64,000 bases of DNA from Oscillospiraceae bacterium (GTDB lineage: Bacteria; Bacillota; Clostridia; Oscillospirales; Oscillospiraceae), in the NCBI GenBank assembly GCA_902765595.1, contig CACXAQ010000022.1, positions 52,255-116,254 on the forward strand. The letters run 5' to 3'. The notes under the pieces were generated by a model, which saw only the letters and a list, made by a program, of their open reading frames with translations, was not told the DNA's origin and did no database searches. The position numbers were made by a program, and so were the translations under genes. Of this stretch, positions 9,739-53,157 are shown piece by piece (the first letter of the stretch is position 1; the number at the start of each line of letters is the position of its first letter).

Positions 9739-10917
9739 ATGACTGAACTGGAACTGAAATACGGCTGCAATCCCAATCAAAAGCCCGCCCGCATCCTGAT
9801 GAAGGACGGCCGGGGCCTGCCCGTGACGGTGCTCAACGGCCGCCCGGGCTACATCAACTTTCTGGACGCGCTGAACTCCTGGCAGCTGGTCAAGGAGCTG
9901 CAGGCGGCCACGGGTCTGCCCGCCGCCGCCTCCTTCAAGCACGTCTCCCCCGCCGGGGCCGCCGTGGGCCTGCCCCTGACCGAGACGGACCGGAAGATCT
10001 ACTTCGTGAAGGAGGGCGCGCCCCTCTCCCCCATCGCCTGCGCCTACATCCGGGCCCGCGGGGCCGACCGGCTCTGCTCCTACGGGGACTGGGCCGCGCT
10101 GAGCGAGATCTGCGACGCGGCCACCGCCGAATATCTGAAGGACGAGGTGTCCGACGGCATCATCGCCCCGGGCTACACCGAGGAGGCTCTGGCCATCCTC
10201 AGGACCAAAAAGAAGGGCAGCTACAACGTGGTCCAGATCGACCCGGACTACGTCCCCGATCCCCGGGAGCAGAAGGACGTCTTCGGCGTCACCTTCGAGC
10301 AGGGCCGAAACGAGTTCAAGATCGACGAGAGTTTGCTCCAGAACATCGTGACGAAGAACAAGCACCTGCCCCACCAGGCCAAGATCGACATGATCGTGGC
10401 CCTCATCACCCTCAAGTACACCCAGTCCAACTCCGTCTGCTACGTGAAGGACGGCCAGGCCATCGGCGTGGGCGCCGGCCAGCAGAGCCGCATCCACTGC
10501 ACCCGTCTGGCCGGTCAGAAGGCGGACAACTGGTATCTCCGCCAGCACCCCAAGGTGCTGGGGCTGCAGTTCGTGGAGGGCATCCGCCGTCCGGACCGGG
10601 ACAACGCCATCGACGTCTACACCTCCGACGAGTATGAGGACCTGCTGCGGGACGGCGAATGGCAGCGGGTGTTCGCCGTGAAGCCGGAGCCCCTCACCGC
10701 CGCGGAAAAGAAGGCCTGGATCGCCACCCAGTCCGGCGTCACCTGCGGGTCCGACGCCTTCTTCCCCTTCGGGGACAATGTGGAGCGGGCCAGGAAATCG
10801 GGCGTGCAGTACATCGCGGAGCCCGGCGGCTCCATCCGGGACGACCACGTGATCGCCACCGCCGACCGCTATGACATGGTCATGGCCTTCACCGGCATGC
10901 GCCTGTTCCACCACTGA
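9739..10917 (+). CDS. purH: AICAR transformylase, stand-alone (PurH C-terminal domain only)
   Basis: This 392-residue protein covers only the formyltransferase half of PurH and lacks the roughly 200-residue IMP cyclohydrolase domain. It starts MTELELKYGCNPNQKPARI and has the catalytic Lys-His pair in AASFKHVSPAGAA, as well as KYTQSNSVCYVKDGQ and GAGQQSRIHCTRLA. The enzyme uses 10-formyl-THF to formylate AICAR. Together with the preceding PurO-type protein it completes IMP synthesis as two separate polypeptides. The start is ATG 9739 with a purine-rich GAAACGGAG upstream. An 800-bp repeat-filled gap follows. Confidence 0.93.
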   Translation: MTELELKYGCNPNQKPARILMKDGRGLPVTVLNGRPGYINFLDALNSWQLVKELQAATGLPAAASFKHVSPAGAAVGLPLTETDRKIYFVKEGAPLSPIACAYIRARGADRLCSYGDWAALSEICDAATAEYLKDEVSDGIIAPGYTEEALAILRTKKKGSYNVVQIDPDYVPDPREQKDVFGVTFEQGRNEFKIDESLLQNIVTKNKHLPHQAKIDMIVALITLKYTQSNSVCYVKDGQAIGVGAGQQSRIHCTRLAGQKADNWYLRQHPKVLGLQFVEGIRRPDRDNAIDVYTSDEYEDLLRDGEWQRVFAVKPEPLTAAEKKAWIATQSGVTCGSDAFFPFGDNVERARKSGVQYIAEPGGSIRDDHVIATADRYDMVMAFTGMRLFHH

Positions 10918-44428: not shown

Positions 44429-45121
44429 TCAAAACCGCGCGGCGGCCACCGCTTCCCGGATCCGGGCGGTCAGGGTCGGGTCCAGGTCGACCTCTTCCGC
44501 AGTCCTGTCCTCCAGGGCCTGGGGCGCCCTGCCGCTGCCCTTTTCATAGTCCGGCCGGAAGTCGAAGCCCCGGTCCGAGAGTCGGGACAGGTCCCGCGTC
44601 CCGCACAGCAGCGCAGCGAAGCTGGCCGCTGCGAGATAGGCCCCGTAGGGGGAGGCGTGCTCCCCGTCCCGCCAGAAGAGAGGCACCTCGTCCCGCAGCC
44701 GGTCAAAGAGCTCCCCCACCGGGGAGAGCAACGCGCCATATTCCGCCGCGAGGCGCCGGTAGCAGCGGCTCATGACCGTGGCGTTCTCCGGCTTTGCCTC
44801 CTCTGCCCAGGTCATGTACAGTACCGGCCTGGTCCCCGCCTTTTGACAGAGGGCGGCGATCTCCTCCACGCCCGCCCGGGTGAGCTCCTCCCCCGGGAAG
44901 GGGTGGGCCTGCTGCTGGATCACGCAATAGTCATAGCCCCCCTGCAGCAGGGCAAAGCGCAGGGCGAAGTACTCCTCCCGGTGCCAGGCGAGGGACCGGC
45001 CCGAGTAGGCCAGCATGGAGACCTCCGGCCGCTCCCCGGTGAGCTCCCGGCACATCCGGGCGAAGAGCGCCGGCATATCGTGAAAATAGGTGTGGCTGTT
45101 TCCCACGAACAAAACGCGCAT
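44429..45121 (-). CDS. SGNH/GDSL-type hydrolase-like protein
   Basis: The 230-residue protein starts MRVLFVGNSHTYFHDMPALF. GNSHT is the block I serine motif of SGNH esterases (Ser9 here in place of the GDSL serine), and the C-terminal DGEHASPYGAYLAA provides the Asp-x-x-His block V. VIQQQAHPF supplies a block-III-like segment. There is no signal peptide, so it acts in the cytoplasm. Substrate unknown. ATG 45121 has AAGGAAG about 7 bp upstream. Confidence 0.83.
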   Translation of the reverse strand: MRVLFVGNSHTYFHDMPALFARMCRELTGERPEVSMLAYSGRSLAWHREEYFALRFALLQGGYDYCVIQQQAHPFPGEELTRAGVEEIAALCQKAGTRPVLYMTWAEEAKPENATVMSRCYRRLAAEYGALLSPVGELFDRLRDEVPLFWRDGEHASPYGAYLAAASFAALLCGTRDLSRLSDRGFDFRPDYEKGSGRAPQALEDRTAEEVDLDPTLTARIREAVAAARF

Positions 45122-45145
45122 GATCTCGCTTCCTTTCATTTAACA

Positions 45146-45302: not shown

Positions 45303-46016
45303 TTATTCCTGATACAGCAGCTCCATCCTAAAGCAGGGCCGCTCGCCGCCGCCCTCCAGATAGCACCGCTCCCCTTCCCGGGTCCAGCGCAGCGTCAGCT
45401 CCTCGCCGAGTCTTGCCTCGGCGGTGTACTCCACGCAGATCCGGGAGAGCCTCTTCCCCTCCTCCGCCGCGGGGATGGTGTCCTCCGCCAGGTCGAAGTA
45501 GCGGGTGTTGTTCATGTGGCCGTTCAGGTCCACGTAGCTGTAGGGCACCCGGAAGCGCCGCTCCTCCCGGCAGTCCTGCCGCCGCACGGCCCCGGGCAGG
45601 GCGATCTCCTCCCCGGTCCGGACGCCTTGGATCTCCACGCCGTATTTCTCGGGAAATACCATCTTCCGGCTCTGCTGGTCCACCAGGCACCAGAGGGCGC
45701 TGGCCTTCAGCAGCGGCTCGCCCTCGGCGGTCTCCATGCTGTAGTAGCGGGGGAAGAACAGGTGCATGGTCTGGCCAGGCCAGCTTTTCAGCACCACGTG
45801 CTCGTCATACTCCGGCATGCGGGCGATCTCGCAGCGCTGCAGGGTCAGCACCCAGAGGATGCCCTTGTCCAGGGTCTTGTCCCGGCCCATGCCCAGCTCC
45901 TCCGTGTGGCGGATGGAGGCCTCCTGCAGCAGCCGGAACAGCTCCGAGGTCCGGAGCCTGCGATACAGATCCACGTCCTTGGACCGGAGGTGGATCTCCT
46001 CCCGGTAGACGCTCAT
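45303..46016 (-). CDS. Acyl-ACP thioesterase
   Basis: From ATG 46016 the protein is 237 residues. It has the double hot-dog FatA-like pattern: REEIHLRSKDVDLYRRLRTSELFRLLQEAS, then ILWVLTLQRCEIARMP, and in the second half YSYVDLNGHMNNTRYFDLAED, containing the Asn-His active-site pair of plant and bacterial acyl-ACP thioesterases. It would release an acyl chain from the carrier protein encoded just upstream. The start overlaps the ACP stop (ATGA). Confidence 0.88.
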   Translation of the reverse strand: MSVYREEIHLRSKDVDLYRRLRTSELFRLLQEASIRHTEELGMGRDKTLDKGILWVLTLQRCEIARMPEYDEHVVLKSWPGQTMHLFFPRYYSMETAEGEPLLKASALWCLVDQQSRKMVFPEKYGVEIQGVRTGEEIALPGAVRRQDCREERRFRVPYSYVDLNGHMNNTRYFDLAEDTIPAAEEGKRLSRICVEYTAEARLGEELTLRWTREGERCYLEGGGERPCFRMELLYQE

Positions 46017-46264
46017 GCCTTGGGCAGCCGCTTCATGATGGCGTCGGCCACGTCGCCCATGGTCAGGAGCTTGCTCCACTGACGCTCGGGGATGCGCACG
46101 TCAAAGAGGGCCTCCAGCTTGCAGATGATGAGCACAAAGCCCATGGAGTCGATGGCGGTCTCGGTGTTGATCACCGTGTCCTCCTGGATGTCCTGTCCCG
46201 CCATATCGGGGAAGCAGTCAAAAACTACGGTCCGGATCTTCTCGATCACTTCTGCTCTTGTCAT
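46013..46264 (-). CDS. Acyl carrier protein (dedicated)
   Basis: An 83-residue carrier with the phosphopantetheine serine at residue 40 in TAIDSMGFVLIICKLE. The rest is acidic and helical as usual for ACPs, although the D-S-M/L motif is followed by GFV rather than DLV, which sets it apart from housekeeping AcpP. It lies between an adenylate-forming enzyme and a thioesterase, so it is likely a dedicated carrier. ATG 46264 lies 6 bp after the ligase stop. Confidence 0.9.
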   Translation of the reverse strand: MTRAEVIEKIRTVVFDCFPDMAGQDIQEDTVINTETAIDSMGFVLIICKLEALFDVRIPERQWSKLLTMGDVADAIMKRLPKA

Positions 46265-46270
46265 GTTCCT

Positions 46271-47602
46271 TTATCCTTTCTGCTGGAGCTCCCAGCGTTT
46301 GATTTTACCCGTTGCCGTGCGCGGCAGCGGCTCCTGTACGATCTCGACCCCGCAGAGTCTCTGGCCCCGGGGCAGCTCCGTCATCAGCGGCAGGAGCTTT
46401 GCCAGGATCTCCTTTTCGCTGCCCTCGCCGCTGTAGATGAGCAGCGGCCGCTGGTCCCGCAAGGTCACGGCCAGCTCCGTGTGGCCCAGCGCCTGCATCA
46501 GCGCCGCCTCATACTCCGGCAGGAAGATCTTGGTGCCGTCGGGCAGCACCAGCATGTCCTTCTTGCGCCCGGTGATGTGCAGGCGGCCCTCCTCGTCGAA
46601 GCGGCCCAGGTCGCCGGTGTGGAACACCCCGTCCCGGAGCACCTCCGCGGTCGCGTCGGGGCGCTTGTAGTAGCCCTGCATCATGCAGGTGGGGGCCTGG
46701 ATCAGGATCTCCCCGTCCTCCGCCAGGGTGATGGTGTCGTCCGGGCAGATCTCCATGGCAAAGGGGTCGCCCCGGACGCTGATGGCGACGCCGGAGCTGG
46801 TCTCGGTGAGGCCGTAGCCGAAGCTCACCCGGATGCCCAGGGCCCCCGCCGCCTCCAGCAGCGTCTTGGGGCAGTCTCCCGCGCCCACCAGAATGAGCTT
46901 CAGTTCCGGGTTCACGGCCCGCTGCTTCAGCAAAAAGCCCAGCAGCAGCGGCACCAGGGACACCGCCGTGGGCCGGTAATAGGTACAGTCGTCGATGTAG
47001 TGCCGGGCGCCGCGGCCCAGGGCCACGCAGGCCCCGCAGCTCAGGCCCCACAGCAGCCCGCACACGAAGCCGAACACATGCCCCAGGGGCAGCATGCACA
47101 GCAGCGTGTCCGTGGGGGACAGGGGCAGCTTCTGGGCGCCGTTCCAGGCGCTCTGGCACAGGGAATGGTCCGTCAGCACCACGGCCTTGGCCCGCTCGGT
47201 GGTGCCGGAGGTGAAGAAGAGGATCTTTCCTTCCCCGTCGTCCACGCCCCCGGTCAGGGCGGGCGTGAGCTCCTCCACCAGGTCCTCGTCGCCCCAGAGG
47301 GCGTCGATATCCGTATAGGCTACCAGCTGCCGCAGCAGGGCGGCCGGGGCGTTCTCATCCAGCATCACCAGCTGCATCCCGGCCAGATTTGCGGCAAAAA
47401 GCTCGATCACGCAGTCCAGGCTCCCATCGGCAAGCACGCCGAGACAGGTCTTGCCCTCGGCCCGCAGGGCCTCCGCCCTGGTCCGGACAGCCTCCCAGGT
47501 CTCCGCAAAGCTCAGGCTCCTTCCGCCGCAGCGCAGGGCCGGCGCCTGGGGCGCGGCCTCCGCCCAATGGGCCAGGAGCTGGGAAAATCGGTCAAAACGC
47601 AT
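46271..47602 (-). CDS. Acyl-activating (AMP-forming) ligase
   Basis: The 443-residue protein of the ANL superfamily shows the phosphate loop FFTSGTTERAKAV, the YGLTET motif, HTGDLGRFDEEGRLHITGRKKDMLVLPDG and the C-terminal catalytic Lys in RTATGKIKRW. It is shorter than typical acyl-CoA synthetases (500-550) and lies directly beside an ACP. It therefore probably acts as an acyl-ACP (acyl-AMP) ligase loading a free fatty or aryl acid on the carrier. It is divergent from the flavoprotein genes. Confidence 0.87.
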   Translation of the reverse strand: MRFDRFSQLLAHWAEAAPQAPALRCGGRSLSFAETWEAVRTRAEALRAEGKTCLGVLADGSLDCVIELFAANLAGMQLVMLDENAPAALLRQLVAYTDIDALWGDEDLVEELTPALTGGVDDGEGKILFFTSGTTERAKAVVLTDHSLCQSAWNGAQKLPLSPTDTLLCMLPLGHVFGFVCGLLWGLSCGACVALGRGARHYIDDCTYYRPTAVSLVPLLLGFLLKQRAVNPELKLILVGAGDCPKTLLEAAGALGIRVSFGYGLTETSSGVAISVRGDPFAMEICPDDTITLAEDGEILIQAPTCMMQGYYKRPDATAEVLRDGVFHTGDLGRFDEEGRLHITGRKKDMLVLPDGTKIFLPEYEAALMQALGHTELAVTLRDQRPLLIYSGEGSEKEILAKLLPLMTELPRGQRLCGVEIVQEPLPRTATGKIKRWELQQKG

Positions 47603-47635
47603 GGGCCCGCCTCCTTATGGTTTCATACTGAAATC

Positions 47636-47664
47636 AATATACCATGACGCGCCCCGCTTGAAAA
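47636..47664 (-). promoter_or_regulatory. Promoter of the acyl ligase-ACP-thioesterase operon
   Basis: Minus-strand TTTTCA, 17 bp, TATATT (complement of 47636-47641), about 35 bp before the ligase start. Confidence 0.5.
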
Positions 47665-47726
47665 GATTTTTTGAAAAAATGACAAAAAAAGAACGATTGT
47701 TTAGTGCAATTTCCGTGAGCCTGTTG

Positions 47727-47732
47727 TATAAT
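47727..47732 (+). promoter_or_regulatory. -10 box of the first flavoprotein gene
   Basis: A perfect TATAAT about 50 bp upstream of ATG 47784. No good -35 is found at 16-18 bp (the best, GTGCAA, is poor), so an activator may be needed. Confidence 0.5.
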
Positions 47733-47783
47733 GTCCCCAGCAAGTCTTGTGATTCGCTAAATATACAATACGGAGGAGAAGAC

Positions 47784-49142
47784 ATGGACAAGAACACGCG
47801 CATCTGCATCATCGGCGGCGGCCCCGCAGGCCTTTCCGCCGGTATGTACCTGGAGCAGAAGGGCTACAAGAACTACACCATTCTGGAGCGTCAGGATCGG
47901 GTCGGCGGCAAGTGCTGGTCCCCCTACTACAACGGCAGACGCTACGAGATGGGCGCCATCATGGGCGTGCCCTCTTACTACGCCGTTGAGGACGTGGAGA
48001 AGTTCTGCGGCATCACCCACGACGGCCCCAAGCTCAACCGCAACTACAAGGACGGCAACGGCAACGTGATCGAGCCCTTTGCCCGCACCCTTGGCAACAT
48101 CATCAAGAACCCCTGGCTGCTGAAGATGAAAAAGCAGCTCAAGACCTTCGGCGAACTGCTGGAGACCAAGTACAAGGGCTATGACGTGAACGGCCACCGC
48201 GGCGTTGCCGAGGGCCGTTACGACGGCTACGCCGTCACCCCCGGCCGTGAGAAGATCCAGGGCGAGAACCCCAACCTGAAGGATCTGTCCATGCCCTTCA
48301 AGGATTTCTGCGAGATGAACGGCGTTCCTCTGGTGCAGAAGATCTGGATCGGACCCTTCACCTCCTTTGGCTACGGCTACTTTGACGAGATCCCCGCGGC
48401 CTACGTGCTGAAGTATCTGGACTTCCAGACCTGCATGAACTTTGTCAAGGTCAACCTCTGGACCTGGAAGAACGGCACCCAGTACATCTGGGAGCAGCTG
48501 AACGAGCATCTGGCCAACCCCGCCCGCCTGAACAGCACCATCGAGAAGGTGGAGCGCAAGGACGGCAAGGTCTACGTCACCGTGAACGGCCAGGTGGAGG
48601 AGTACGACAAGATCATCGTCACCGCTCCTCTCTACATCCCCAACAAGCGCGCCGACGGCCAGAAGGGTATGGTCGAGTACTTTGACGCCCGCGAGGACGA
48701 GAAGGAGCTCTTCTCCAAGATCGACTACGAGCGCTACGACGTACAGGCCTTCCTCACCAAGCCCGAGGATCACCCCGAGATCTCCTACTACGTGTTCGAC
48801 AACATGGTGCCCGAGAAGCTGGGCCGCCTGATGGTCTACTACCGCCGCTGGAGAGACGAGATCGACCAGGTCATCACCACCTACGCCCTGCGCAAGCACA
48901 AGAACATGGACGAGATCCCCTACGAGACCTGCCGCCAGATGGTGCAGGACGACCTGAAGATCATGCACAACCCCGCCGAGAAGGTCATCAACGAGTGGTC
49001 CGTGTACTACTTCCCCCATGTCTTCTCCGAGGACTACGCCGCCGGCTGGTACGACAAGGTCGAGGCCATGCAGGGCAAGTACGACACCTTCTATGCCGGC
49101 GAGGTCATGAGCTTCGGCGACATGGACGAGACCGCCGAGTAG
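47784..49142 (+). CDS. FAD-dependent amine-oxidase-type oxidoreductase
   Basis: A 452-residue flavoprotein starting MDKNTRICIIGGGPAGLSAGMYLEQ with a canonical GxGxxG dinucleotide fold, ERQDRVGGKC (the VGG of the amine oxidase/protoporphyrinogen oxidase superfamily) and a late FYAGEVMSFGD segment in place of the usual FAGE motif. There is no signal peptide. The substrate is unknown. GGAGGAG lies 6 bp before ATG 47784. It heads a plus-strand set with another FAD enzyme and an electron-donor reductase. Confidence 0.85.
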   Translation: MDKNTRICIIGGGPAGLSAGMYLEQKGYKNYTILERQDRVGGKCWSPYYNGRRYEMGAIMGVPSYYAVEDVEKFCGITHDGPKLNRNYKDGNGNVIEPFARTLGNIIKNPWLLKMKKQLKTFGELLETKYKGYDVNGHRGVAEGRYDGYAVTPGREKIQGENPNLKDLSMPFKDFCEMNGVPLVQKIWIGPFTSFGYGYFDEIPAAYVLKYLDFQTCMNFVKVNLWTWKNGTQYIWEQLNEHLANPARLNSTIEKVERKDGKVYVTVNGQVEEYDKIIVTAPLYIPNKRADGQKGMVEYFDAREDEKELFSKIDYERYDVQAFLTKPEDHPEISYYVFDNMVPEKLGRLMVYYRRWRDEIDQVITTYALRKHKNMDEIPYETCRQMVQDDLKIMHNPAEKVINEWSVYYFPHVFSEDYAAGWYDKVEAMQGKYDTFYAGEVMSFGDMDETAE

Positions 49143-49359
49143 AAAACGCTGACCCAACCGTTCTCGGCATCTTCCGGGTATTTTGCGCCCTGACTTTGCC
49201 AAACCTTTTTGAAATACACAAAGTATGTCTGCAAAGCTTTGTCTTCGCCAGGACGCAAAATTCCTCGGAATCTGCTCTCGACGGTCGGATCATCGTTTCC
49301 TCTTTGAGGGCGGAGTTCATCTCTGCCCTCTATCTTTCTAATTGAGAAAGGATGCTTCT
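49143..49359. other. 217-bp gap without a gene
   Basis: The segment between the two flavoprotein genes is less GC-rich than its surroundings and holds no credible frame. No clear terminator hairpin was found, so read-through to the second gene is possible. GAGAAAGG at 49344-49351 is the ribosome-binding site of the next gene. Confidence 0.4.
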
Positions 49360-50907
49360 ATGAGCTTCTATAAAGACCATTACGACGTCGTCATCATCGG
49401 CGGCGCCCTGGCCGGCATGTCCGCGTGCCTGCAGCTGCAGGCCTGGGGCATCAAGGACATCCTGATCCTGGAGAAGCACAACATGCCCGGCGGCCTTGCC
49501 ACCGACTTTGTGCGCAACGGCTTTGAGATCGAGGCCACCCTCCACGAGATGATGTCCATCGGCCAGCCCGGCAAGCGCCTGAAGGTGGGCAAGTTCTTCG
49601 ACGATATGGGCGTCAACATTGACTGGCTGCCCGTGCCCGAGTGCTATCGCGTGGCCCTGCCCAACTCCGGCATCGACAAGGTGCTGCACCCGGACTATGA
49701 CGACAGCTACACCACCGTCGCCAAGGAGATCGACGAGGTCGTCCCCGGCACCTACGACAAGGTCCATGAGCTGATGCTCCTGTGCCGCCGGGTCTACGAC
49801 AGCATGAATATCCTCTCCGTCACCCCCATGAGCAAGGTCCAGATGCTGCTCAAGCACCCCGACTTTGTCAAGACCGTGGGCTACACCGCCACCGAGGTCA
49901 TCGACACCTTCAAGCTGCCCAAGAAGGCCGTGGAGATGCTGACCCCCTACTGGATCTATGTGGGCAACCGCATGGATGACCTGCCCTTCACCATCTACGC
50001 CTTCCTGATGGCCGACTACTTCACCGGCTCCTACGTGTGCCGCGGCTTCAGCCATGAGATGAGCATGAAGATGCAGGCCAAGTGCGAGGAGAACGGCGCC
50101 CAGTACGAGTTCAACCAGGAAGTGGACAAGATCCTGGTGAAGGACGGCAAGGTCTACGGCGTGCGCACCCGCCGGGGCGACGAGATCCACTGCGACTACG
50201 TCATCTCCGGCCCCTACCCCAACAAGGTCTACAGCCAGATGATCGAGCCGCTGAGCGAGGTGCCCGAGGGCGCCATCCGCATGATCAACAACCGCAAGCT
50301 CTCCGTGGTCCCCGTGTCCGTCATCATGCTCCTCGAGGGTACCCCCGAGGAGAACGGCATCACCGATTACTCCACCTTCTCCGGCTCCACCATGGACACC
50401 AACAAGATCTGGGAGAACTACTCCAACATCACCGAGCCCTATAACTACATCACCACCATCTGCCTCAACTACGCCAATCCCACCCTGCCCGAGGGCTACA
50501 CGCAGCTCTCCATCACGGCCCTGGTGCCCTCCAAGCCCTTCCACGACGTGAAGGAGGAGGACTACCACGATCTGAAGCGCCGCCTGGCCAATGAGATGAT
50601 CGAGGAGTGCATCAAGATCACCAAGGTGGACTTCCGTCCCCGCATCACCGAGTTCGAGGTCACCACGCCCGTCACGGTCTCCCACTATGTGGGCGCCTGG
50701 AAGGGCAACATCTACGGCTACCTCCACTCCATGGAGGACCACGCGGTGGCCCGTCTCCAGATGAAGGAGAAGGATCACTTCATCGAGGGTCTGGAGTTCG
50801 CCGGCGCCCACGGCATGTCCGGCGACGGCATGGGCCCCCAGATCACCAACGGCCGCGCCGCTGCCAAGGGCGTGAAGGAAGACATGGAAAAGAAAGGGAG
50901 GCTGTGA
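49360..50907 (+). CDS. Phytoene desaturase-like (CrtI family) FAD oxidoreductase
   Basis: The 515-residue protein starts MSFYKDHYDVVIIGGALAGMSACLQLQAWG. The Rossmann motif is G-G-A-L-A-G, with alanine at the second glycine. EKHNMPGGLATDFVRNGFEIEATLHEM and the C-terminal LEFAGAHGMSGDGMGPQITNGRAAA are CrtI-like (FAD-contact regions). Such enzymes desaturate, saturate or isomerise lipid-like molecules. No carotenoid genes adjoin. It ends 3 bp before the reductase gene, so the two are co-translated. ATG 49360 was chosen over TTG 49342 for ribosome-site spacing. Confidence 0.87.
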   Translation: MSFYKDHYDVVIIGGALAGMSACLQLQAWGIKDILILEKHNMPGGLATDFVRNGFEIEATLHEMMSIGQPGKRLKVGKFFDDMGVNIDWLPVPECYRVALPNSGIDKVLHPDYDDSYTTVAKEIDEVVPGTYDKVHELMLLCRRVYDSMNILSVTPMSKVQMLLKHPDFVKTVGYTATEVIDTFKLPKKAVEMLTPYWIYVGNRMDDLPFTIYAFLMADYFTGSYVCRGFSHEMSMKMQAKCEENGAQYEFNQEVDKILVKDGKVYGVRTRRGDEIHCDYVISGPYPNKVYSQMIEPLSEVPEGAIRMINNRKLSVVPVSVIMLLEGTPEENGITDYSTFSGSTMDTNKIWENYSNITEPYNYITTICLNYANPTLPEGYTQLSITALVPSKPFHDVKEEDYHDLKRRLANEMIEECIKITKVDFRPRITEFEVTTPVTVSHYVGAWKGNIYGYLHSMEDHAVARLQMKEKDHFIEGLEFAGAHGMSGDGMGPQITNGRAAAKGVKEDMEKKGRL

Positions 50908-50910
50908 GAA

Positions 50911-52101
50911 ATGAGCATTAAAGTCAAAGGCTTTCTGAAGGACATCGGCGGAGCCTCCCGCGTCACCAAGCTGAGAGAAGAGAACTTCGCCAAGGGCTCT
51001 CCCATCCCCGATCCCCACGACCCCATCCGGGAGCTGGCGGACAAGCTCCATCCGGACTCCATGCAGGTCAAGGTGGTGGACATCCGTCAGGCCTCTCCCA
51101 GCTCCCGCACCTACCGCTTTGAGTCCCTGGACGGGCACATCCCCGTGTTCCAGAGCGGCCAGTACGTGAACTTCCGCCTGGAGATCGGCCAGAGCAAGCT
51201 CTCCCGCCCCTACACCATCTCCTCCGCCCCCTTTGAAGCCCGGGGTGAGCACCCCTTCTTTGAGGTGACCATCCGCCGCAACGTGCCCTACCTGGTGCCC
51301 GATTACTTCTTCGAGCAGGTCCATGTGGGCGACGTGCTGGAGGCCAATCTCCCCTTCGGCTTCTTCTACTGGGAGCCCATGCGGGACAGCAGAACCATCG
51401 TGGCCCTGGCCGGCGGCTCCGGCATCACCCCCTTCCACAGCATGGCCAAGGAGATCGCCTACGGCAAGATGAAGGGCGTCAAGCTCACCATCCTCTACGG
51501 CTCCGTGAAGGCAAACGACATCGTCCTCAAGGAGGAGCTTGCCGCCATCGAGGCCGCCTGCCCCGACGTGAAGGTGGTCCACGTCCTCTCTGACGAGCCT
51601 GACTGGCCCGGCGAGAAGGGCTTCATCACCAAGGAGATCATCGAGAAGTACTCCGAGGGCGACGTGACCTATATGTTCTGCGGTCCCCTGCCCATGTTCC
51701 GCTTTGTGAAGAAGGCGCTGGACGAGATGGGCGTGCCCCTGCGCCGCTTCCGTCACGACGTGGTCAATAACCCCGCCGACATCTCCACCCTGCCCGGCTA
51801 CCCCAAGGGCACCGAGAAGAAGACCTTCAAGATCACCGTGGTCCGCGGCATCCAGGAGGATGTGATCGACGCCAACGCCGCCGAGCCCGTAGCCGTGGCT
51901 CTCGAGCGGGCCGGCATCAAGATCGACACCCATTGCCGCAACGGCGAGTGCGGCTTCTGCCGCAGCCACCTGCTCTCCGGCGAGATCTTCGTCTCCCCCA
52001 TCGGAGATGGCCGCCGCCGCATGGACAAGGAGATGGGCTGGTTCCACGCCTGCTCCTCCTGGCCCCTCAGCGATCTGAAGATCAAGATCCCCATCATGTA
52101 A
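50911..52101 (+). CDS. Ferredoxin reductase-like flavoprotein fused to a 2Fe-2S ferredoxin domain
   Basis: A 396-residue electron-transfer protein. After about 45 N-terminal residues comes an FAD domain (RPYTISSAP binds flavin), an NAD(P) domain (VALAGGSGITPFHSMAKE; MFCGPLPMF), and a plant-type 2Fe-2S domain at the end with HCRNGECGFC...HACSSWP (C-x4/5-C-x2-C-xn-C). This is the layout of phenol hydroxylase/benzoate dioxygenase reductases, with the ferredoxin domain at the C-terminus. In an anaerobe it probably passes electrons between NAD(P)H and the adjacent CrtI-like enzyme. Confidence 0.9.
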   Translation: MSIKVKGFLKDIGGASRVTKLREENFAKGSPIPDPHDPIRELADKLHPDSMQVKVVDIRQASPSSRTYRFESLDGHIPVFQSGQYVNFRLEIGQSKLSRPYTISSAPFEARGEHPFFEVTIRRNVPYLVPDYFFEQVHVGDVLEANLPFGFFYWEPMRDSRTIVALAGGSGITPFHSMAKEIAYGKMKGVKLTILYGSVKANDIVLKEELAAIEAACPDVKVVHVLSDEPDWPGEKGFITKEIIEKYSEGDVTYMFCGPLPMFRFVKKALDEMGVPLRRFRHDVVNNPADISTLPGYPKGTEKKTFKITVVRGIQEDVIDANAAEPVAVALERAGIKIDTHCRNGECGFCRSHLLSGEIFVSPIGDGRRRMDKEMGWFHACSSWPLSDLKIKIPIM

Positions 52102-52115
52102 GCCCCGACAAACGG

Positions 52116-52155
52116 CAGCCGCCGCGGCCTTTTGACCGCGGCGGCTGTTTTTCTG
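52116..52155 (+). terminator. Terminator of the flavoprotein operon
   Basis: A 12-bp perfect stem CAGCCGCCGCGG/CCGCGGCGGCTG with an 8-base loop and TTTTTCTGTTTT, 14 bp after the stop. Confidence 0.9.
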
Positions 52156-52224
52156 TTTTCCGTAAAGAAAGGCTTCTCTTCCCCTGTCATAATTATTCGG
52201 CGGGAGGAGCGAACCCATATTCAA

Positions 52225-52256
52225 AATTCCGAATTCCGCATTCCGAATTCCGAATT
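52225..52256. repeat. TTCCGAA microrepeat
   Basis: Four to five tandem units of ATTCCGA/ATTCCGC just after the converging DegV gene, the same unit as at 4128-4152. Confidence 0.7.
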
Positions 52257-52272
52257 GCTCCTCCGTCCGCTC

Positions 52273-53157
52273 TCAGTCCACCCGCTCGCTGCCCCAGAAG
52301 AACAGGGCCACAGTGCCGGGCCCGGTGTGGGACCCGATGGTGGTGCCGATGTTGTTGATGAGCACCTTGCCGTTGAGCTTGGGGAAGCGCTCCTCCACCA
52401 GCGCCGCCACGGCCTGGGCGTCGGGCAGGCAGGCGGACATGGAGATGAAGCACTTGCCGTCGTAGTCCAGACCGTCCCGGGCGCACTCCTCCATCTTCTT
52501 CACGATCTCCCGGATGACCCGCTTCTTGGTGCGGATCTTGAAGCGGGGGATCAGGCGGCCCAGGTTGTCCATATTCAGCAGGGGGCAGATCTCCAGGACG
52601 CTGCCGAAGAAGGCGGCGGTCTTAGAAATGCGCCCGCCCTTGACGTAGAAGCTCAGGTCCGTGGAGAAGAACCAATGGTGGACCTTCAGCCGGTTTTCCT
52701 CGATCCAGGCGGCCATCTCGTCCACGCTCAGGCCCTCGTCCCGCTTGGCGGCGGCGGTGTCCATCAGCAGGCCGTAGCCGGAGGAGGCGCCCAGGGAGTC
52801 GATGATATAGATCTTCCGCTCCGGGTAGCGCTCGGAGAGGATGTTGGCGGCGTTGCGGGCGGAATTGATGGTGCCGGAGATGCCCGAGGACAGGCACACG
52901 TGCACGATGTCCTGCCCCTGCTCCAGGAAGGGGGTGAAAGCGTCCACGTACTCGGCCACGCTGACCTGGGAGGTCTTGGTGTCCGCGCCCTTGCTCATCC
53001 GGTCGTAGAACTCTTCAAAGGGGATGCTCTGTCCCAGGTCGTCGGGATACTCCACCCCGTCCAGGGAATAGTGGAAGCAGACGTAGTTGACATGAATGGC
53101 CTCGAAATGCTCCTTGCTCAGATCGGCGGTGGAGCAGCAGCTCAGAATATAGCTCAT
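52273..53157 (-). CDS. DegV family fatty-acid-binding protein
   Basis: From ATG 53157 (GGAG 7 bp upstream) the 294-residue protein shows the two-domain DegV/FakB fold: MSYILSCCSTADLS at the start, TKTSQVSVAEYVDAF, CLSSGISGTINSARNAA, IDSLGASSGYGLL and the C-terminal SHTGPGTVALFF. FakB-type members hold a fatty acid for phosphorylation by FakA. No fakA is present here. Its location next to an acyl-ligase/ACP/thioesterase locus suggests a shared acyl substrate, which is an inference. Confidence 0.93.
   Translation of the reverse strand: MSYILSCCSTADLSKEHFEAIHVNYVCFHYSLDGVEYPDDLGQSIPFEEFYDRMSKGADTKTSQVSVAEYVDAFTPFLEQGQDIVHVCLSSGISGTINSARNAANILSERYPERKIYIIDSLGASSGYGLLMDTAAAKRDEGLSVDEMAAWIEENRLKVHHWFFSTDLSFYVKGGRISKTAAFFGSVLEICPLLNMDNLGRLIPRFKIRTKKRVIREIVKKMEECARDGLDYDGKCFISMSACLPDAQAVAALVEERFPKLNGKVLINNIGTTIGSHTGPGTVALFFWGSERVD

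Follow-up and report, generated by a model that had tools for sequence, protein, structure and literature searches.

What is made by two flavoproteins and an iron-sulfur reductase that are encoded divergently from an operon for an acyl carrier protein (ACP)? The question is raised by a 64,000-nucleotide stretch of DNA (the window), which is part of contig C22 of a draft Oscillospiraceae genome (2.14 Mb, 84% complete). An earlier note on this DNA had proposed an acyl- or lipid-modifying pathway that took in a neighbouring DegV gene, and knew of no such pathway. Our analysis indicates that the genes, with DegV excluded, form one conserved unit that most likely modifies acyl chains by isomerisation, reduction and release. 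Such a pathway has a precedent: its first proposed step is a known reaction, because gene 1 of the cluster is homologous to a crystallised polyunsaturated fatty-acid isomerase, PAI, and biohydrogenation of polyunsaturated fatty acids (PUFA) is already known biochemically. On balance, we consider it probable that the locus is a PUFA biohydrogenation cluster of ruminant-gut Clostridia. Its genes and the region between the two operons are as follows.

47784..49142, plus strand: gene 1, 452 aa, PAI family (Pfam Amino_oxidase/NAD_binding_8; match to 2b9w)
49360..50907, plus strand: gene 2, CrtI-fold flavoprotein, 515 aa, proposed conjugated-acyl-chain reductase
50911..52101, plus strand: gene 3, NAD(P)H ferredoxin-reductase ending in a 2Fe-2S domain, proposed to supply gene 2 with electrons (FAD_binding_6, NAD_binding_1, Fer2)
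47603..47783, no strand: divergent intergenic region, 181 bp, between the ligase start at 47602 (minus) and the gene 1 start at 47784 (plus)
46271..47602, minus strand: AMP-binding acyl ligase, 443 aa, probable acyl-ACP synthetase (AMP-binding E 5.3e-37)
46013..46264, minus strand: ACP, probably dedicated (phosphopantetheine site D39-S40; no Pfam family)
45303..46016, minus strand: FatA-type acyl-ACP thioesterase (TE; Pfam Acyl-ACP_TE and Acyl-ACP_TE_C)

The divergent layout of flavoprotein genes and ligase-ACP-thioesterase operon, spacer included, is as the earlier note had described it. Neighbouring minus-strand genes either overlap or stand a few bases apart; TE overlaps the ACP stop by 4 bp.

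An alignment of 13 gene-1 sequences, used as the query against named genomes, yielded 388 loci, and we counted neighbours at the best 80. Wherever the contig extended far enough, gene 2 lay directly behind gene 1 (72/72 loci), gene 3 was present downstream (67/67), and the divergent strand carried the ligase (72/73), the ACP (72/73) and TE (66/67). All six genes were found at 56 of the 57 loci with room for them, L116 being the exception; the six-gene arrangement is therefore far above chance. The set is also complete for acyl-ACP handling, in that the AMP-ligase domain, the phosphopantetheine serine and the thioesterase catalytic residues were all found. ACP residues D39-S40 are invariant in 73/73 aligned sequences, as are TE residues D163, N165, H167 and E200, which we take to be catalytic, in 69/69. 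The ACP matches NCBIfam ACP models below their cut-offs, and a second ACP, above the family cut-off, lies on another contig of the same genome (G000:C7). As judged from sequence, the cluster ACP is probably dedicated, and the ligase is a probable acyl-ACP synthetase, which would charge ACP rather than CoA.

We also searched 200 genomes for the gene-2 family (E 1e-60), which matched in 18 of them and gave close relatives (at least 56%) in 12 other than the window's. Gene 3 was adjacent at all 12 of these close loci, gene 1 at 10, and divergent ligase and ACP genes at 8 (with TE off the contig in one). The four loci without an adjacent operon were L029, where it lies on another contig, L038, where the contig ends inside gene 1, and L031 and L032, which also lack gene 1. 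Genome G463 carries gene 1 and the ligase-ACP-TE operon on one contig and genes 2-3 on another; G109 carries genes 1-3 on one contig and the operon on another; in G041 and G153, a close gene 2-gene 3 pair occurs, gene 1 is missing and no close thioesterase is found (best 26%). In the one-contig genome G900 (L151, 11437-12000), most of gene 1, the ligase, the ACP and the start of TE are missing and the two outer ends abut; its genus-mate G1096 has the full set. Based on these patterns, we conclude that, in these genomes, gene 1 and the ACP operon are either both kept or both missing, and genes 2-3 behave as a more loosely tied module.

Among the titles of the best 80 records, 33 name a ruminant, 34 carry the label RUG, which we take to mean rumen uncultured genomes, 3 carry RUI and 10 name no host; by hand count, 67/80 are ruminant or RUG. 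A few of the records are labelled Lachnospiraceae, Coriobacteriales or Sphaerochaetaceae, suggesting transfer or mis-binning. Gene 1 is rare in even draws of genomes: it was found in 4/295 genomes of the order, the window's own included, and in 5/398 genomes across the phylum, among which the window's own alone was close and the four others matched at 31-33% over part of the protein.

The gene 1 isomerase family and the gene 2-gene 3 pair

Gene 1 had been described as an amine-oxidase-type flavin enzyme; the Amino_oxidase domain is there, and the protein belongs more exactly to the known PAI isomerase family. It matches crystallised C. acnes PAI (2b9w) with E 2e-130 over residues 2-450, the next solved protein following at E 2.5e-10. 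PAI residues R88, F168 and F193, presumably those of the substrate gate and channel, align with R86, F195 and F220 of gene 1, which are invariant in 80/80 aligned sequences (window included). Gene 1 is a homologue of PAI, and isomerase activity is predicted from that homology.

Gene 2 has a CrtI fold, the closest solved fold being that of a carotenoid desaturase. An altered G-x-A-x-x-G motif had been pointed out in it; the protein does read G-G-A-L-A-G, and the motif alanine is common to 11/12 close gene-2 sequences, window included (L031 has G). Against curated models, gene 2 scored 91 bits for TIGR02734 (cut-off 238) and 76 bits for TIGR02730 (cut-off 587), below both. The earlier note had asked for a gene-neighbourhood analysis and held that carotenoid clusters without the ACP operon would speak against its proposal; that analysis instead gave the six-gene arrangement at 56/57 loci. 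We rejected a carotenoid pathway on a search for phytoene/squalene synthase (SQS_PSY), which found it in 0/11 carriers, mostly draft genomes; as a control, the search was positive in 7/14 known genomes.

Gene 3 is, as had been claimed, a reductase fused to a 2Fe-2S ferredoxin, with FAD_binding_6 and NAD_binding_1 domains followed by a C-terminal Fer2 domain (Pfam), and its 2Fe-2S cysteine ligands C342, C347, C350 and C381 are invariant in 68/68 aligned sequences. A gene-3 homologue adjoins gene 2 at 13/13 further class-wide gene-2 loci (L149 and L150 each represent a second gene-2 copy, which flanks the shared gene 3 from its opposite side). Distant paralogues of the family behave in the same way: 15 were listed and 7 examined, gene 3 being adjacent in 6 and the seventh cut by the contig end. 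We next compared pairwise distances at the 54 loci with five complete genes. Distances for genes 2 and 3 were correlated with r 0.97 (Pearson; partial r given gene 1, 0.96) and those for the ligase and TE with r 0.88, and the values for gene 1 against any other gene were just 0.37-0.47. For pairs of loci in which gene 1 was <12% apart and gene 2 >35% apart, gene 3 was also >35% apart in 99/99 cases. At L054, L069 and L076, gene 1 is 90-91%, the ligase 72-76% and TE 63-70% identical to the window, and genes 2 and 3 just 50-56%; behind gene 1, two divergent gene-2 groups occur, 50-70% and at least 75% identical to the window. Genes 2 and 3 have been swapped between loci as a pair. Their constant adjacency and their co-evolution are as expected of a flavoenzyme with its own electron donor.

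Relatives of genes 2 and 3 also occur in other settings. The small same-genus genome G109 has five gene-2 homologues (contigs C1, C3 and C11; 30-85%), and the enzyme type is therefore expanded there. At L031 (10569-11300), a FadR/GntR-type regulator lies directly upstream of a gene 2-gene 3 pair without gene 1. At L032 (56-10350, G153), homologues of genes 2-3 have as neighbours an AMP-ligase gene, an MFS-like frame, CoA-transferase III genes and two genes for short-chain dehydrogenases. The grouping brings bile-acid (bai) operons to mind; the pair there is possibly the same enzyme type reducing a different acid. Homologues on plasmids were only distant ones. Plasmid pDA100 of the marine gammaproteobacterium Photobacterium sp. 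DA100 (L170, 9699-12553) carries a CrtI-like gene (21% to gene 2) with a PAI-like gene (28% to gene 1) immediately behind it; a gene-3-like frame was not noticed nearby, though no search was aimed at one. On a Ligilactobacillus acidipiscis plasmid (L172, 5338-8363), three genes stand in a row: one for a TetR regulator, one for a CrtI-like flavoprotein (26% to gene 2), and one of the ferredoxin-reductase type (Pfam: FAD_binding_6 only).

Proposed pathway and alternatives

In the pathway that we favour, gene 1 would use its FAD to shift one double bond of free linoleic or linolenic acid, a step for which the homology is strong, yielding a conjugated diene that by analogy with PAI would be the trans-10,cis-12 isomer. 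Electrons from NAD(P)H would then pass through the 2Fe-2S domain of gene 3 to the FAD of gene 2, which would reduce one double bond of the conjugated diene to give a trans mono-ene, namely trans-10 18:1 if gene 1 acts like PAI. In the third and most tentative step, the ligase, ACP and TE would load the chain onto the dedicated ACP and unload it again, so that some of its processing or disposal would take place on acyl-ACP. Since PAI works on the free acid, and the conserved R86 points likewise, a possible role for the ACP is to hold the chain while it is reduced, or to bring it to the membrane and back. The likely benefit would be detoxification of dietary PUFA, together with a sink for reducing power. 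The conjugated linoleic acid (CLA) reductase of Butyrivibrio is reported to use NADH 1:1 (PMC4478896), which fits reduction by genes 2 and 3, and we count the neighbouring PAI-like and CrtI-like genes of Photobacterium sp. DA100 in favour of a biohydrogenation cluster.

Among other explanations, the one that survives best, which we nevertheless think unlikely, is that the cell uses genes 1-3 to build a special conjugated or trans fatty acid for its own membrane, gene 1 isomerising and genes 2-3 adjusting the chain, with the ligase and ACP feeding phospholipid synthesis and TE acting as an overflow valve. The ACP and acyl ligase do remain with gene 1 where genes 2-3 lie elsewhere (L155), and the genome has its separate ACP above the family cut-off; by contrast, the FatA-type thioesterase in the same operon opposes incorporation. 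To our knowledge, Clostridia make no PUFA themselves, which also counts against a membrane role. Most of the listed carriers, moreover, come from ruminant guts, where PUFA are dietary and toxic (toxicity: PMC2836310).

A lower probability still attaches to the idea that genes 2-3 are a desaturase or a second isomerase, in which case gene 2 would oxidise the chain, and gene 3 would either hand the electrons back to NAD or re-oxidise the flavin. This would be in keeping with the solved carotenoid desaturase fold and with the existence of CrtI-type isomerases (carot_isom, 76 bits against a cut-off of 587), but even distant homologues of gene 2 have an NAD(P)H-2Fe-2S donor next to them, as expected of a reductase, and the transfer of electrons from an alkane C-C bond to NAD runs uphill. 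Least probable among these alternatives is an ene-reductase of general scope that acts mainly on something other than fatty acids (a steroid, terpenoid or plant phenolic) and whose place behind gene 1 is secondary: the L032 pair lies without gene 1 beside a CoA-ligase, a CoA-transferase III and two short-chain dehydrogenases, and many distant paralogue pairs lack gene 1, but the pair is directly behind gene 1 in 72/72 loci with room, across the two divergent gene-2 groups.

Several points weigh against a biohydrogenation cluster. Isomerisation is predicted by homology, and reduction and use of the ACP are steps that we infer; the direction assigned to gene 2, reduction and not desaturation or isomerisation, is deduced from its partner and from anaerobic life; and PAI itself acts on the free acid. 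At its locus, G900 has lost gene 1 and the ACP operon but keeps genes 2-3 whole. L116 and L029 have no ACP operon close to the cluster, and adjacency is therefore not needed. Genes 2-3 occur without gene 1 in L031, in L032 with the bystanders just described, in 11/13 class-wide loci (1.5 kb flanks) and in distant family paralogues, indicating that enzymes of this type are not reserved for gene 1. Because the counts cover the best 80 of the 388 loci, ruminant origin and synteny may be enriched by choice. Lastly, gene 1 of the window is truncated: it stops 10 residues early, and the extra ten residues are present in 79/79 complete relatives among the 80 named loci and in 13 earlier-found gene-1 sequences (partly from the same genomes). 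The window copy may be impaired through this loss, which bears on its activity and not on its membership of the family.

Intergenic region, inserts and neighbouring genes

Four further features surround or interrupt the plus-strand operon.

47704..47732, plus strand: probable gene 1 promoter, -35 GTGCAA, 17 nt, extended -10 TGTTGTATAAT (recurrent -10-like hexamer)
about 49142..49302, no strand: interspersed repeat that removes the gene 1 3' end (copies at four other places of the genome)
52114..52149, plus strand: terminator-like hairpin ending the three-gene operon (14-pair stem and T-run)
52273..53157, minus strand: DegV/FakB-like gene, convergent, a neighbour outside the unit (DegV 1.8e-58)

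A -10-like hexamer lies at a similar distance from the gene 1 start in 59/73 intergenic sequences, many with an upstream [GT]TG, as found by pattern and by eye, without statistics; a sigma-70 consensus scan did not detect the element at 47704..47732. We rejected a shared operator in the divergent region, as no conserved palindrome was seen by eye in the 73 sequences and only the gene-1 promoter-like element recurs. No structured RNA or riboswitch in 47500-52300 matched Rfam at E 0.1.

The repeat, of ~160 bp, sits where gene 1 of the window breaks off, between genes 1 and 2. Copies with 68-74% identity lie at four other places of the same genome (L002, L003, L004 and L006); a fifth matching place, L005, is gene 1 FAD-motif DNA and not the repeat. 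The repeat has no Rfam match. In the same-genus genome G174 (L028, about 10360-10560), the gap between genes 1 and 2 carries a different insert, with GGGGCCGACGC-type inverted ends, and the gap therefore seems to be a landing site for inserts.

The earlier note had made DegV a follower in the pathway that binds the product. This part of its proposal did not hold: a DegV gene is adjacent in 1/53 loci with 8 kb downstream, and that copy is 32% identical. In the window, DegV is on the opposite strand, convergent, beyond the 52114-52149 hairpin, and we rejected it as a member of the unit on both grounds. The scan for terminator-like sites found 4 against 3.6 in shuffles, so the site count is itself no evidence. 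At the other end of the unit, directly downstream of TE, an open frame (44429-45139, minus strand) starts MKGSEIMRVLFVGNSHTYF and presumably encodes an SGNH-type hydrolase, from its look.

A wider fixed gene set was considered and rejected. Among the extra flank families at the 80 loci that we judged to be real genes, a GltD-like Fe-S flavoprotein ranks first (27 loci), and the remaining families occur in 10 loci or fewer; two other large flank families (67 and 27 loci) have no match to any of the six proteins, and from their position and strand they look like antisense frames. The GltD-like 4Fe-4S flavoprotein (~938 aa) lies within 1 kb behind gene 3 in 23/64 loci with room (e.g. L124, 14395-17208), and 19 of these 23 carry the more distant gene-2 group. 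This fourth gene, which may add a second electron source, is not in the window; three paralogues (45-51%) lie elsewhere in the window's genome.

Comparison with known systems

Ruminal biohydrogenation governs the saturation of milk and meat fat, and its genes are largely unknown; the trans-10 branch (t10,c12 CLA and trans-10 18:1) is tied to milk-fat depression. One study of cultured strains calls the formers of rumen trans-10 intermediates unclear, describes C. acnes as the only producer among 28 strains, and judges it unlikely to be the sole or main one (PMC7339423). PAI homologues (at least 40% identity) were reported in 7/228 rumen metagenome-assembled genomes (MAGs), including one from Oscillospiraceae, and a correlation with milk t10,c12 CLA was described for three isomerase-bearing MAGs; the main text of that report does not use the word "reductase" (PMC10019597). 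A Butyrivibrio fibrisolvens genome paper states that a linoleate isomerase gene was not found (PMC6249431). Within the open-licence literature we found no report of the cluster, of genes 2-3 or of the ACP link.

It is a tentative and rather doubtful extension of our reading that uncultured Oscillospiraceae and relatives of the ruminant gut have a self-contained trans-10 biohydrogenation pathway and are a main unrecognised rumen source of trans-10,cis-12 CLA and trans-10 18:1. The pathway would combine a PAI-type isomerase with a dedicated shuttle for acyl-ACP and a new ene-reductase of two components, CrtI-like protein and ferredoxin-reductase. A conserved cluster in which a PAI-type isomerase is joined to a candidate reductase offers named genes in named MAGs, and its abundance in metagenomes can be counted as a marker. 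Should gene 2 with gene 3 prove to be the reductase, this adds a flavin/2Fe-2S type of ene-reductase for fatty acids in anaerobes.

Gene 1 resembles C. acnes PAI in its nearly full-length alignment and in sharing the presumed substrate-channel residues. It differs in having about 40 extra residues inside the aligned part and, in the window, in lacking the last 10 residues. Its context is a six-gene cluster, and the comparison with PAI is one between the proteins. PAI expressed in E. coli and Lactococcus lactis is reported to convert free linoleic acid to t10,c12 CLA (PMC2885616). A pure culture of C. acnes, as described in PMC7339423, produced t10,c12 CLA and not trans-10 18:1, whereas an older study cited in PMC2885616 is said to report about 10% t10 octadecenoic acid.

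Compared with CrtI carotenoid desaturases and isomerases, gene 2 scores far under the curated cut-offs, and its carriers lack phytoene/squalene synthase (0/11). Retinol saturase is a further comparison beside the CrtI-type enzymes. Gene 3 shares FAD, NAD and 2Fe-2S domains with BenC/PaaE-type NADH reductases (best NCBIfam match BenC, 134 bits), but is under the curated cut-off (430), and its partner is a CrtI-like gene, not an oxygenase.

Lactobacillus plantarum processes linoleic acid through hydroxy and keto intermediates, with an enone reductase, CLA-ER. The oleate-hydratase family is not among the Pfam/NCBIfam families listed for the seven window proteins. The likeness to the L. plantarum CLA-HY/CLA-DH/CLA-DC system is that of a multi-gene conversion of linoleic acid in a gut bacterium (PMC13365329). 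The CLA reductase of B. fibrisolvens (Hughes 1982; Fukuda 2007, with a gene sequence reported; both as cited in PMC4478896 and PMC2836310) shares with genes 2 and 3 the same proposed step, CLA to trans-18:1, and NADH as donor, a likeness drawn from its description. That enzyme is described as membrane-associated, and as absent from KEGG, COG and Pfam when sought in 2015 (PMC4478896), whereas genes 2 and 3 look soluble to us. What is known, then, is the biohydrogenation process and its first enzyme; what is new is the cluster and the candidate reductase.

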